The notes under the pieces: generated by a model | The model's input: the letters and a program-made list of their open reading frames with translations, nothing else | Databases searched by the model: none | Told to the model about the DNA's origin: nothing | Translations under genes and position numbers: made by a program | Assembly (NCBI GenBank): GCA_030740295.1 | Contig: JASLXP010000781.1 | Location: forward strand, 1-29,483 | Length of the DNA stretch: 29,483 nucleotides | DNA from: Planctomycetota bacterium | Lineage (GTDB): Bacteria > Planctomycetota > PUPC01 > JACPCR01 | Direction: 5' to 3' | Shown: in pieces, positions 6,165 to 10,605 of the stretch | How the letters are laid out: each line of letters opens with the position of its first letter | Numbering within the stretch: the stretch's first letter is position 1

Positions 6165-7487
6165 CTACTGAATTGGCAGCTTCAGGCTCATCTCCTTCTT
6201 CCCACGAAGCACGGTGACCGGCATTTTCATTCCCGGCTTCATCGCATCCAGTGCGTACATGAGGAACTCCGTCTCCGTGGCGCGTTTTTTCTCGCCGTCG
6301 AACGCGGTGAAGACGTCGTTCTTGCGAAAGCCGGCTCTGAGGGCGGCGCCATGCTGGCCGTAACGGCCAAGGTGCGCGATTTTAAGGGCCAGACCGGCAG
6401 TTCCGAGCCCGGCCTGCTTGCGTTCTTCGTCAGTGAGATCCTTCAGAAGGACACCACCGACCATGCGGCGCAAATCCCACGTGCTCGTGCGCCAGGTGAT
6501 GTCGCCTTTTGTTCGCCAACCGGACGGCAGCGCAAGTGTCACTTGCCGTTCTCCGCCTCCGCGGCGCACAGCCGCTTTTACCTGGCCGGTGTCCCCTGTG
6601 TGATGGAGCACCCACTGGATGTCCGCGGTGGAAAGGATGGGCTGCCCGTTAAGCGACACGATTGCGTCGCCCGCCTTCAAGCCAGCAGCGGCCGAGGGTG
6701 AATCCGGGCTGACGGCCTTGACGGTGGCTGGACTGGCCGGGTCCATCTGCAAGCCGATGGTGTCCGGCATGGGCCAGGGGAATAGAATCTTCCTGGGAAA
6801 CGTTTCCTTCCGACTGCGATAGACCATGCGTTCGGCACCGACGATCTGATGGCAATGCAGACAACTGCGCGCCACCTGGCCCTTGTAATCGAGCGTGGCC
6901 TTGAATCGGCGCAGCGATGGATACTGCTCCGGCTTGGCATAACGCGGTTTTTTTCCCTGCTTGCCCGCCAGAGATTCACGGTTCGCGGGATAGCCTCGAT
7001 GAATTTCGAGCGCGGCTTTCATCGCGCCACCGAAGCCCTGCATCGAGATGTCACGGACCGCTTTGCGATCCGAGCGCGTTCCGTAACGGCCGTAAATAGT
7101 CTTATCCGCATTCATGAAAAACGCGGCGAAAGTCAGATCGTAATCAAACTGAAAAAGATTCAGGTCCATGGAATTCATCTGAACCACGCGGACACAGACA
7201 AACTGGTCCATGAGAGCCTTCAATCTAGATTCGCGACGGACAACCTGCCCGTCAAAATCCACGCAAGCGTGTCACGGTATTCAGCGGAACACGATGAGCA
7301 GCGGCTTCTTCGTCTTGCTGGCGATCTCGATGGCCCTCGGCAGATCGTTGTAGATCCAGCTCTGATCGCTCTGCAAAGTCTGCCGGTCTTCCCGGACCAT
7401 CTGATCGCGAGTTTTCTTCTTTTCAGCGAACGAAAGGCTCGTGGCAAGGACAAGCAATCCTGCGAAATATGCTCGGTGATGCTTCAT
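6165..7487 (-). CDS. Secreted thioredoxin-like / c-heme / PDZ selenoprotein with a Sec-x-x-Sec motif
   Basis: Read through two in-frame TGA codons, this is one 440-residue protein. It has a signal peptide (MKHHRAYFAGLLVLATSLSF), then a Trx-like strand KKPLLIVFR, then U69-I-P-U72-H-A-C75 where related proteins are expected to have CxxC. The thioredoxin-like domain continues to about residue 200. A single c-type heme site CLHCH (C209, C212, H213) follows, then a PDZ domain at about 255-322 (VKAVSPDSPSAAAGLKAGDA) and a second PDZ-like domain to the C-terminus. A SECIS-like hairpin starts 18 nt after the second TGA. I recall planctomycete proteins named Trx7/PDZ domain (seleno)protein in public annotation, which matches this architecture. 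The likely role is periplasmic thiol/selenol redox chemistry; the substrate is unknown. Standard gene calling would yield a 68-residue peptide plus a 365-residue ORF from the GTG at 7262. Confidence 0.85.
7235..7253 (-). promoter_or_regulatory. SECIS-like hairpin
   Basis: On the mRNA the sequence is GACGGGCAGGTTGTCCGTC. It folds into a 7-bp stem (GACGGGC with GUCCGUC, one G-U pair) and a 5-nt loop AGGUU. The loop carries two adjacent G residues near its 5' side, resembling the GGUCU apical loop of E. coli fdhF. The stem begins 18 nt after UGA-72 and 27 nt after UGA-69, within the usual range for a bacterial SECIS read by SelB. It lies wholly within coding sequence, as bacterial SECIS elements do. 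Confidence 0.75.
7272..7283 (-). other. Two in-frame UGA codons predicted to encode selenocysteine (UxxU)
   Basis: The mRNA reads TGA ATA CCG TGA. The first TGA is at 7283-7281 and the second at 7274-7272, with exact Cys-x-x-Cys spacing and at the position of the redox motif of a thioredoxin-like domain. The codons on both sides form one continuous protein in the same frame. Confidence 0.8.
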
Positions 7488-7641: not shown

Positions 7642-9091
7642 TTGCAAGTGAAAAAGAAAAGAAACCACCACTGCGGACGTACTTTCCAACCGCGCACACG
7701 GCGTGAAATGCTGGGAATATGTGCCCAGGGATTCGGGGCTTTCGCTCTTACTTCTCTGATGGGTGACAAGGCGTACGGAGCTAAGGTCGGCAACGGCGCC
7801 CGTGCGTTTGCTCCCAAGGCTCCCCATTTCGAGCCAAAGGCCAGGAATGTCATCTTCCTTTACATGGATGGCGGGCCTTCGCAGGTCGACACCTTTGACC
7901 CAAAACCGATGCTCGACAAGTTTCACGGCAAGCCGTACCCGGCCAGGATGGAACCGACACAGTTTGACAACCGCGGCAAGACCATGGCATCGCCGTGGAA
8001 GTTCAGTCCTAAAGGCAAGTGTGGTCTGCCCGTCAGTGATCTGTTCCCGTACGTGAGCGAGTGCATCGATGATATCGCGGTGATTCGTTCGATGACCTCC
8101 AATTTCTCCGATGCACACGAATGCGAACTACTTTTTGCACACCGGCAGCGGGCAGCAGGGCCATCCCAGTATGGGCGCCTGGTTCGGCTACGGCCTTGGC
8201 AGCACAAACGAAAACCTGCCCGGTTTCGTCGTCCTCAACGGTGGGCTGATTCCGCCGGGCGGCCTCGACAATTTCAATACCGGATATCTGCCGGCCACCT
8301 ACCAGGGCACGGTTGTCAACATGTCCGGCTCTTCCATCGAAAATATCAAGCCGACCGAGCCGACGCCCGCGCACCAGCAAAACAAACTCAACCTGCTCCG
8401 GCAGCTCGACCAGTCCGTCTTGGGCCGCATGGGGCATGTGGATCAGCTCGAGTCTTCCATCGCGAATTACGAAATGGCCTATCGGATGCAGGCCACCGTG
8501 CCGGAATTGATGGACATTTCCGGCGAATCCGAAGCTACTAAAGAACTCTACGGCCTTAACAGCAAGTTTCGCCAGACAACAGTTTTCGGGCGCGAGTGTC
8601 TGCTTGCCCGCCGCTTGATTGAACGGGGCGTTCGATTTGTCGAACTGACCTGTCCCGGCGGGTCGGGCGATCGCTGGGACCAGCACGGCAACATCAAAGA
8701 CGGCCACGCCAAGAATTCCCGCGCGGTAGACCAGCCTATCGCCGCTTTGATCAAAGACCTGAAGGCCCGCGGGCTTTTCGAGGAAACGCTCCTGGTATGG
8801 ACGGGGGAGTTCGGCCGGACGCCCTTCGCCCAGGGCTCGGGGCGTGACCACAATCCGTTCGGCTTCTCGCTCTGGCTGGCCGGGGCAGGAGTTAAGGGCG
8901 GGATAGCTTTCGGGGCGACCGACGAGTTTGGATACAAGGCCGTCGAGGGCAAAGTCAACATCCACGATCTGCACGCCACCATGCTGCACCTGGTCGGCAT
9001 GGATCACACGAAGCTCACGGTGCGCTTCAGCGGGCTGGACATGAGGCTCACGAATGTCCATGGAGAGATCATCCACGAAATTCTCGCCTGA
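7642..9091 (+). pseudogene. DUF1501 family Tat-exported protein, interrupted by a one-base frameshift
   Basis: DUF1501 proteins belong to the alkaline-phosphatase-like metalloenzyme superfamily. They are exported by the Tat system and usually sit beside PSCyt1-type cytochrome proteins in planctomycetes; their substrate is unknown. Here a twin-arginine signal (TRREMLGICAQGFGAFAL) is followed by RNVIFLYMDGGPSQVDTFDPKP, typical of the family. At about 8110-8113 the frame shifts. The first frame continues as nonsense after SNFSD, and the second resumes with HTNANYFLHTGSGQQGHPSM. Removing one base from 8110-8113 would restore SNFS-(E/D)-HTNANY. The rest (VELTCPGG, LVWTGEFGRTPFAQG, HDLHATMLHLVGMD) is intact. 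The TTG start is supported by GGAG 8 nt upstream. This is either a true pseudogene or an assembly error; the intact remainder makes a recent lesion or error likely. Confidence 0.85.
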
Positions 9092-9204
9092 TTGCACGGG
9101 CAGTAAGAATGCAATAACTTGCCTTTCAGCACGACAGAATGATTGAAACACCCCCTAGACATCCCAACTTCCAAGAAAAACCCTAGTTCCATATGGAGAA
9201 AACC

Positions 9205-10605
9205 ATGATTCGACACCTCAGCGCAGCGGCCATTCTTCTTGGCCTCAGCACCATGTCTGTTCGAGCGGAAAATGCCGCTATCAGCAAAGACCTGTTCGTG
9301 AAGAAGGTCTGGCCGATGTTCGAGGCCAAGTGCTTCAAGTGCCACGGCCCCAAGAAACAGAAAGGCGAACTGCGGCTCGATCAGAAGGCCGCGGCATTCA
9401 AAGGCGGCGAGAGCGAAAAGCTGAGCATCGTGCCGGGGGATGTCAAAAAAAGTGAGTCGATCGTACGCATTTACCTGGCGGAAGATCACGATGATGTGAT
9501 GCCGCCAAAGAAGCCGTTTCTGACCAAAGAAGAAAAAGATACCTTCAGCAAGTGGGTTCTGACCGGGGCTGTCTGGGACAGTTCTTTGAAAGCCACGGTC
9601 ACTGACGAAAAGGTCGCACGAAAGGTGCCGCCTGCCGACCCGGCCACCCTCAAGGCCCTGCAGGATGCCGGCGCCCTCGCCGGCCCGCTGGCTCAGAACA
9701 CCAACGTCGTGAGTGTGAATTTCATGCGCGTCTCAAAGGACGTCAATGACAAGCACCTGCCGCAGCTCAAGAAGATCGCCCTGCAACTCGAATGGCTTAA
9801 TCTGGCCAACACAAAAGTCACCGACGGAGGTCTGGGCAATCTGAAAGATCTGAAACACCTGACTCGGCTGCATCTCGAGAAGACAGGTATCGGTGATGCC
9901 GGCCTCGCTCATCTCGAAGGCCTCGCAAATCTCGAATACCTCAACCTCTACGGAACGAAGGTCACAGACAAGGGCCTGGCCTCTATCGCCAAGCTGCCGA
10001 AACTGAAAAAGGTCTTCCTCTGGCAGAGCAAGGTGACGGACAAGGCTGCGGATGCCTTCCGGAAATCGCACGCCAAGGTGATGCTCGACAATGGCTGGAA
10101 GCCGCCCGCAAAGCCGCCTGCCCCGGCCCTCAAGACGGTCAACGATAAGTGCCCGATGTCCGGGAAGCCGGTCGTGGCTGCACACACCTTCAAATATAAA
10201 AACGAAGAGATTGGTTTCTGCTGTCCAAAGTGTCTCGCCAAGTTCAAAGCCACTCCTGAAAAATGCATTGGCGCAGTTGTGCGCGTGAGGAAGCCGGTGG
10301 CCAGGGGAACGACAGCGAAAGTGGGTGCCACAGCCAGGGTCGGAGCAACGGCCACGGCCAGGGTCGGCGCCACGGCTACGGCCAGGGTCGGCGCCACGGT
10401 CAAGATCGGCGCAACGGCCACGGTAAAAGTCGGCGCAACGGTCACCGCCAAGACATTCAACAGCAAGTGCCCGCTCAGCAACAAGAATGTCAACCCCGCA
10501 CACACCTTCGCGTTCAAAGGGAAGACTGTCGGCTTCTGCTGCCCGAACTGCCTTGCCAAATTCAAGAAGTCGCCGGACAAATTCTTTGCCAAGGTGAAGC
10601 CATAG
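9205..10605 (+). CDS. Secreted PSCyt1 cytochrome c / leucine-rich repeat / double YHS-like metal-binding protein
   Basis: I choose the ATG at 9205 over 9193 because GGAG at 9195-9198 sits 6 nt upstream and the protein then begins directly with a signal peptide. It has 466 residues. The planctomycete cytochrome c domain has CFKCH (C43, C46, H47), GELRLD and an MPP motif (M99) that may supply the other heme ligand. LRRs occupy about 166-291 (LEWLNLANTKVTDGGLGNL, LEYLNLYGTKVTDKGL). A first YHS/TRASH-like domain follows at 316-350 (CPMSGKPV...FCCPKCLAKF), then a low-complexity linker with six [VI]GAT repeats (about 371-414), then a second YHS-like domain (CPLSNKNV...FCCPNCLAKF). It probably works in the periplasm with the DUF1501 protein; the partner role is inferred from the common pairing of these families. 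Confidence 0.88.
   Translation: MIRHLSAAAILLGLSTMSVRAENAAISKDLFVKKVWPMFEAKCFKCHGPKKQKGELRLDQKAAAFKGGESEKLSIVPGDVKKSESIVRIYLAEDHDDVMPPKKPFLTKEEKDTFSKWVLTGAVWDSSLKATVTDEKVARKVPPADPATLKALQDAGALAGPLAQNTNVVSVNFMRVSKDVNDKHLPQLKKIALQLEWLNLANTKVTDGGLGNLKDLKHLTRLHLEKTGIGDAGLAHLEGLANLEYLNLYGTKVTDKGLASIAKLPKLKKVFLWQSKVTDKAADAFRKSHAKVMLDNGWKPPAKPPAPALKTVNDKCPMSGKPVVAAHTFKYKNEEIGFCCPKCLAKFKATPEKCIGAVVRVRKPVARGTTAKVGATARVGATATARVGATATARVGATVKIGATATVKVGATVTAKTFNSKCPLSNKNVNPAHTFAFKGKTVGFCCPNCLAKFKKSPDKFFAKVKP
10315..10443 (+). repeat. In-frame tandem repeat encoding six x-[VI]-G-A-T units
   Basis: Near-identical GC-rich units, mostly 24 bp with some 18-21 bp (for example GCCAGGGTCGGCGCCACG), encode alternating (K/R)VGAT and ATAR spacers between two Cys-rich domains. 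The unit length is a multiple of three throughout, so copy-number change would keep the frame. Confidence 0.9.

Follow-up and report, generated by a model that had tools for sequence, protein, structure and literature searches.

A Trx7/PDZ-family gene of Planctomycetota with two in-frame TGA codons predicted to encode a UxxU selenoprotein with a c-type heme motif

Introduction

Selenoproteins of the SelL family carry a Sec-x-x-Sec (UxxU) motif, and to our knowledge they contain neither a heme motif nor a PDZ domain. A diselenide in the redox motif has been reported for SelL (PMC2397514). The tables of two reviews list other bacterial selenoproteins predicted to carry UxxU, namely a Prx-like thiol:disulfide oxidoreductase, the FmdB family and NF041115, a metal-binding protein/putative mercuric reductase (PMC13188914, PMC9312934). 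A further family, NCBIfam NF041199 ("Trx7/PDZ domain-containing (seleno)protein"), was given as CxxU in the 2022 review (PMC9312934) and as CxxU with one Sec in the 2026 review (PMC13188914). The latter cites the 2008 Global Ocean Sampling study, whose Table 4 gives 2 Sec sequences for a 'putative secreted serine protease MucD' and whose Discussion describes the motif of this protein as CxxU (PMC2398784). Judging from this citation, MucD of the 2008 study probably belongs to the NF041199 family.

Here, we describe a gene in a 29,483-nucleotide stretch of DNA (hereafter, the window) that resembles each of these systems in part. With NF041199, the encoded protein shares the model score and the order of a Trx7 domain followed by PDZ domains, but it differs in having UxxU and two Sec. 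The diselenide-type UxxU motif is shared with SelL, a likeness drawn by description rather than by sequence comparison. UxxU is likewise shared with the Prx-like oxidoreductase, the FmdB family and NF041115, which are different families with different domains according to their listed models. No UxxU form of the NF041199 family was found in the literature searched, including the searched passages of PMC5029168 and PMC4807772. The literature search also returned no match for a planctomycete selenoprotein with thioredoxin and PDZ domains, or for a bacterial SECIS serving two UGA codons. Reading both TGAs of the gene as Sec is well supported. The family is known, and its UxxU form is new relative to the literature searched, and common; a prior two-Sec annotation may exist, for instance in the planctomycete selenoprotein list of PMC4807772 or in GenBank/RefSeq.

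Gene structure and family membership

The gene occupies positions 6165..7487 on the minus strand, where a single frame of 441 codons runs from 7487 to 6165, from an ATG start to a TAG stop, and encodes 440 residues of the NF041199 family. When TGA was translated as U, the only in-frame stops within 6165-7487 were two TGA codons, at residues 69 and 72. According to the translation and the alignments, the first TGA (7281..7283, minus strand; Sec69) falls in the column of the first Cys of a CxPC motif, and the second (7272..7274, minus strand; Sec72) falls in that of the second Cys. A third Cys of the motif, Cys75 (7263..7265, minus strand), was identified from the translation and the census of homologues described below. 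The local reading around the join is ...LLIVFR-U-IP-U-HAC-VDFDG, giving the motif R-U-I-P-U-H-A-C, and the two UGAs are nine bases apart. In the list of open reading frames, the downstream piece spans 6165-7262, as the original prediction had stated, and has a GTG start. The further proposal that two ORFs represent one gene split at two TGAs was confirmed by the translation and by matches to NF041199 and Thioredoxin_7 that extend across the join. Among 120 listed protein-database matches, three entries are likewise fragments starting after the TGAs: that of the window protein itself (P0002, 348 aa) and those of the two relatives nearest to it (P0003, 365 aa, 79% identical; P0004, 316 aa, 78% identical).

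For domain and family searches, Cys was put in for Sec. The read-through protein matched NF041199 with 437.3 bits (cut-off 300) over residues 44-438, and it has the domain content expected of that family, PF13899 together with PF13180 in two stretches. Thus, the idea of a "hidden" selenoprotein representing a new family did not hold, as the protein belongs to NF041199, which had already been reviewed as a CxxU selenoprotein. The one-Sec CxxU description, which stands in the review table and outside the NF041199 model, does not fit the window gene, which has UxxU and two TGAs. Taken jointly, the predicted Sec at both positions, the SECIS, the family membership and the domain order are strongly supported by the sequence data, and 6165-7487 on the minus strand almost certainly encodes one exported redox protein with two neighbouring Sec.

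Conservation across the TGA codons and genomic context

Synteny with the window, at 77-84% nucleotide identity, extends over about 14 kb in a locus from another assembly (L001), and this locus carries the two TGAs at matching positions. None of codons 69-75 differs between the window and L001, while changes were found in 34 of the 68 codons before and 184 of the 365 codons after them. Amino acid identity is 74% before the TGAs and 80% after, and on both sides the base changes fall mostly at third positions (23 of 40 before, 144 of 228 after). The match in L001, this pattern of constraint and the family match across the join together indicate that the interruption by TGA did not arise by chance.

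One likely indel of a single base is present in the window, in the adjacent DUF1501 gene, which might suggest that the TGAs also reflect a sequencing error or a pseudogene. However, both TGAs are shared by L001, which belongs to another assembly, and by many further UxxU loci, and coding constraint runs through and beyond them. The recurrence of the TGAs in independent genomes rules out a sequencing error, and the chance that an error or a pseudogene explains the gene is negligible. Reassignment of TGA to a standard amino acid in the source organism would also be compatible with a conserved gene carrying two in-frame TGAs. This explanation is largely refuted by the normal stop use of TGA in neighbouring genes, since it ends nine of the 14 other window genes inspected; moreover, the TGAs in the present gene occur only at Cys columns, and Sec machinery is present in the nearest relative. 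Reassignment is therefore extremely improbable.

The gene stands alone, with a divergent DUF1501 gene as its upstream neighbour and a converging ORF downstream. Relative to L001, where its frame is continuous, the DUF1501 gene (about 7648-9154, plus strand) has an additional base near 8090-8113 that divides it over two frames; the split in the window is probably an assembly error or a recent frameshift. Beyond it, positions 9193-10605 (plus strand) encode a Planctomycete cytochrome C domain (PSCyt1), leucine-rich repeats and a YHS/TRASH-like end in one protein. Among 81 loci, with flanks of at most 6 kb that were often cut by contig ends, no neighbouring gene cluster recurred in more than six, and the gene neighbours gave no functional hint. 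Searches of viral contigs and plasmids found no relatives, and a promoter scan gave no match.

Distribution of Cys and Sec forms

A scan of genome contigs yielded 299 loci, of which the best 80 were kept and aligned by profile. Homologues with Cys across both TGA columns, to which the original prediction had looked for a check, were found in this set: 56 of the best 80 loci are CxxC exactly there, and the others are UxxU (13) or CxxU (11). The 24 TGA-bearing loci contain no further in-frame stop in the matched region. In-frame TGAs aligned with Cys of homologues, as found here, are expected of a bacterial selenoprotein.

The family was also counted in 392 Planctomycetota genomes, which were drawn evenly from the phylum of L001 with at most four candidates scored per genome; the phylum names used here, Planctomycetota for L001 and Verrucomicrobiota for L004, are those of the record titles. 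NF041199 was over its cut-off in 109 of the 392 genomes, and a two-TGA copy was present in 52 of the 109. These genomes contain at least 132 copies over the cut-off: two TGAs occur in 61, a single TGA in 29 and no TGA in 42. All 61 two-TGA copies were read (14 among the scan or survey loci and 47 fetched separately), and every one is UxxU. The same motif was found in L173, which lies below the cut-off and was listed with three TGAs. Twenty of the 29 one-TGA copies were read (eight from the genome survey and 12 fetched for carrying TGA), all of which have Cys first and TGA second, that is, CxxU or the same with Cys75 changed. Among 337 genomes of the phylum of L004 (Pedosphaera, Verrucomicrobiota), the family was found at E 1e-60 in eight, with one TGA in two of these and no TGA in six.

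Repeats of the same genome copy (L083, L114, L098 and L102) and a partial second row of L166 were dropped, leaving 176 copies (74 CxxC, 70 UxxU and 32 CxxU) in a partly selected sample that includes 60 loci fetched for carrying TGA. The four repeated loci were also left out of the tree and of the larger SECIS set described below, and the L166 row out of the cis-Pro count. In each of the 176 copies, both position 69 and position 72 hold either Cys or Sec. Sec at the first position alone (UxxC) was found in none of the 102 Sec forms read, which cover 20 of the 29 one-TGA copies. Relaxation at the third Cys and at the motif Pro was confined to Sec forms. The Cys75 column has Cys in all 74 CxxC forms and S, A, F or G in nine of the 102 Sec forms, and Pro lies between the redox pair in 74 of 74 CxxC, 47 of 70 UxxU and 26 of 32 CxxU forms.

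In a quick, unrooted tree of 116 proteins with the motif positions masked (and a long-branch warning for L115), the three motif states required 14 changes, and UxxU involved at least five changes on starred branches. The window and L001 grouped with eight other UxxU loci with a support of 94 in this tree. The record labels in this UxxU group are Planctomycetota, Verrucomicrobiota and uncultured bacterium, and such labels may be wrong.

Selenocysteine machinery

The nearest relative of the window, L001, belongs to the MAG casp150-mb.279 (genome G001). This genome contains SelA (483 bits), SelB (329 bits) and, on the same contig as SelB, tRNA-Sec (selC, 76.8 bits), as well as SelD, which also contains a TGA. 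Among the best 80 loci, 13 genomes are represented by UxxU forms; SelD was found in 13 of them, SelA in 11, tRNA-Sec in 11 and SelB in nine, and all four were found in seven. Matches over the cut-off were lacking for SelB in four of these 13 assemblies, for SelA in two (none in G005 and a contig-edge fragment in G013) and for tRNA-Sec, at 59 bits or more, in two. The line of 59 bits was our own choice because the family cut-off (47) was passed in five of 14 control genomes. With 50 genomes searched, SelB was over its cut-off in ten of 11 CxxU and 15 of 26 CxxC genomes.

Across the 109 Planctomycetota genomes with the family, SelA was found in 66 of 72 with TGA copies versus eight of 37 without (Fisher p 1.5e-13, a test that ignores kinship), counting matches with E above 1e-100 as absent. 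By type of copy, SelA was present in 48 of 52 genomes with a two-TGA copy and in 18 of 20 with one-TGA copies only. At the curated SelA cut-off, the group without TGA rose to ten of 37 with the addition of G382 and G171, and the TGA group was still 66 of 72. Six of the 72 TGA-bearing genomes thus had no strong SelA match. One genome, G325, has at least four two-TGA copies (contigs C198, C561 and C649; loci L128, L156, L161 and L167), two of which lie side by side on a 3 kb contig, and no SelA match was found in it. As a separate observation, SelD has one in-frame TGA in eight of the 13 UxxU genomes (G001, G003, G005, G006, G011, G013, G018 and G029), an in-frame TGA pattern reported for Sec-containing SelD in the 2008 study (PMC2398784).

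A predicted SECIS hairpin for two UGA codons

Folding and covariation predicted a SECIS 3' of the second TGA, where the sequence reads GAUUUUGACGGGC-AGGUU-GUCCGUCGCGAAUC. Its apical stem-loop (7235..7253, minus strand) consists of a 7-bp stem, GACGGGC/GUCCGUC, and the loop AGGUU at 7242-7246, and the extended hairpin (7228..7259, minus strand) was obtained as the minimum-energy fold of 7274-7228 and 7283-7200. The fold of 7274-7228 has -18.1 kcal/mol in all (z -2.24). The hairpin was the minimum-energy fold in two of the four stretches folded; in 7283-7220, a different fold has the lowest energy (z -1.23), with the stem seen in the centroid only. Minimum-energy folds also differ in some relatives, such as L013, L015 and L024. 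The distance to the apical loop is 25 nt from the second UGA and 34 nt from the first. The text of the published bacterial SECIS model describes a loop of 3-9 nt with G in its first two positions and an upper stem of 4-16 bp, located 16-37 nt from the UGA with a minimum free energy of at most -7.5. The AGGUU loop, the 7 bp, both distances and the energy of -18.1 kcal/mol all agree with this description, as checked against the text of the model rather than with its program.

The conservation of the stem separates Sec forms from Cys forms. In a fixed register, all seven base pairs of the stem are present in 24 of 25 Sec forms (the window and 24 loci) and six of the seven in the other, while the 56 CxxC forms have a mean of 2.1 of seven pairs and never six or more. 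In a larger set and the same register, the stem is complete in 27 of 41 UUC and CUC rows, a fraction that is lowered because a second subfamily shifts the register of the stem; the 74 CxxC forms never exceed five pairs. Over the 25 sequences, 99.4% of cells are paired, three pairs show two-sided changes and one pair uses five types. The covariation score was 0.384 versus a shuffled mean of 0.163, with none of 500 shuffles as high (the shuffles ignore kinship), and slid controls gave 0.04-0.12. A freer hairpin search for stems of at least six pairs was positive in 61 of 70 UxxU, 26 of 32 CxxU and 19 of 74 CxxC forms; given the CxxC positives, the fixed-register test is the better one for telling the classes apart. 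A further candidate, a small GCCU/AGGC hairpin located 3' of the second TGA and before the SECIS, was rejected, with 72% of cells paired over the 25 sequences and one two-sided change. In searches with Rfam, no match in the window reached the gathering score, and those at the gene were at chance level.

Because of the spacing geometry, and because there is no room for another hairpin between the two UGAs, one hairpin likely serves both. In the proposed mechanism, both UGAs (residues 69 and 72) would be read as Sec by SelB and tRNA-Sec under the direction of this single SECIS. Alternatively, only the second UGA might be efficiently decoded, with the first acting mainly in termination or pausing as a regulatory stop, so that the full-length protein would be scarce and selenium-dependent. 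Such a role could account for the presence of Sec at position 72 in all 102 Sec forms read and of UxxC in none (with 20 of the 29 one-TGA copies covered), and for the greater distance of the first UGA from the SECIS loop (34 nt against 25 nt). The distance of 34 nt is, however, within the range of 16-37 nt given in the published model text, the first TGA shares its column with the first redox Cys and is found in several separate parts of the tree (at least five changes on starred branches), and protein-level constraint continues in the coding sequence 3' of the TGAs. A regulatory stop is thus highly unlikely, and decoding of both UGAs as Sec is preferred.

Domain organisation, predicted structure and redox function

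The protein begins with a probable Sec-type signal peptide at residues 1-22 (7422..7487, minus strand), which was recognised by eye from a basic start, a hydrophobic stretch and SFA before EKKK; AlphaFold2 placed a helix at residues 3-18 within it. A Thioredoxin_7 domain follows at residues 44-127 (7107..7358, minus strand; PF13899, E 5.6e-14). A c-type heme attachment motif, CLHCH, at residues 209-213 (6849..6863, minus strand) corresponds to a CxxCH conserved in the alignment. PDZ domain 1 lies at residues 244-320 (6528..6758, minus strand; PF13180, with matches to the PDZ domains of DegP/DegQ), and PDZ domain 2 lies at about residues 374-439 (6171..6368, minus strand), where PF13180 matched in two stretches and a DegS match covered profile positions 374-439. 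The UxxU motif, CxxCH and two PDZ domains are therefore as the original prediction described them, based on translation, Pfam and alignment. PDZ domains are common to this protein and the DegP/DegQ/HtrA proteases, but a protease of the HtrA/DegP type was rejected because the Pfam scan found no trypsin-like serine protease domain.

The AlphaFold2 model of the whole protein had a pLDDT of 91.9, compared with 86.1 for the N-terminal part alone, with a weaker stretch of about 75 around residues 71-80. The best matches of the whole model were DegP/DegQ-type proteins, over their PDZ part by sequence. With the N-terminal part, Foldseek retrieved AGR2, a Xylella disulphide isomerase, DsbH and the DsbD C-terminal domain (E 2e-4 to 0.1). 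The fold of the N-terminal domain is shared with these four proteins, whereas the position of the cis-Pro probably differs; we know of no Sec pair, heme motif or PDZ domain in any of them. In the model, the Sec pair is predicted to lie directly before the helix after the first long strand, a thioredoxin-like placement.

Thioredoxins usually have a cis-Pro at the start of the third strand. No Pro was present in columns 117-124 of 180 aligned rows, where predicted strand positions would place it, and 170 of the 180 have Phe, Trp or Leu in column 120. The absence of any trace of the thioredoxin cis-Pro makes the protein unlike a standard disulphide reductase, and it is compatible with metal binding. 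The selenolates and Cys75 of a double-Sec protein might bind a soft metal (copper, mercury or similar) instead of cycling through a diselenide, and the heme motif could belong to the same metal chemistry. A cis-Pro may prevent metal binding at CxxC (PMC2757866), a third Cys is present at +3, and the 2026 review mentions Sec as a supposed metal ligand in some selenoproteins (PMC13188914). Nevertheless, Cys75 is dispensable in nine of 102 Sec forms, whereas positions 69 and 72 are Cys or Sec in 176 of 176 copies; disulphide isomerase, DsbH- and DsbD-type domains are among the best structural matches, and the cis-Pro assignment itself relies on predicted strand positions only. Taking both sides together, metal binding without diselenide cycling appears unlikely.

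The preferred reading is that the protein is most likely a dichalcogenide oxidoreductase of the periplasm, in which a redox pair is combined with two PDZ domains and an invariant c-heme motif. The two Sec would replace both cysteines of the CxPC redox pair in the Thioredoxin_7 domain, and Sec69 and Sec72 would probably form a reversible diselenide; diselenide redox chemistry at U69-U72 is, in our assessment, somewhat favoured. The C, C and H of CxxCH are conserved in all 180 aligned rows covering the motif, which, in an exported protein (signal peptide read by eye), is the pattern of a c-type cytochrome. This conservation and the invariance of His163 and His211, seen with 14 and with 50 aligned homologues, make it plausible that a heme is bound with a second His as ligand. 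The CxxCH of the linker may then carry a c-type heme that is located near the redox pair or exchanges electrons with it. Very low potentials have been described for diselenides (PMC2397514), which would favour electron flow from the selenium pair to the heme. Heme attachment and its coupling to the dichalcogenide are, however, put forward as a tentative and somewhat doubtful proposal. The two PDZ domains may bind substrate, probably by holding its C-terminus.

Conclusion

In its widest form, the proposal is that Planctomycetota and their relatives possess a widespread and so far unrecognised periplasmic diselenide system, in which one SECIS would serve two UGAs, UxxU would exchange electrons directly with a heme bound covalently to the same chain, and clients would be bound by the PDZ domains; this complete picture is speculative and rather doubtful. 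The two-TGA form is the commonest in our sample (61 of 132 copies, 392 Planctomycetota genomes), although the family is listed as having one Sec. Gene callers cut this UxxU form, as the entries of the window protein and its nearest listed relatives are fragments. The gene also raises the question of how one bacterial SECIS supports two closely spaced UGAs. CxxC, CxxU and UxxU represent a natural series on one scaffold, so that what a second Sec or a diselenide contributes is directly testable in this family.
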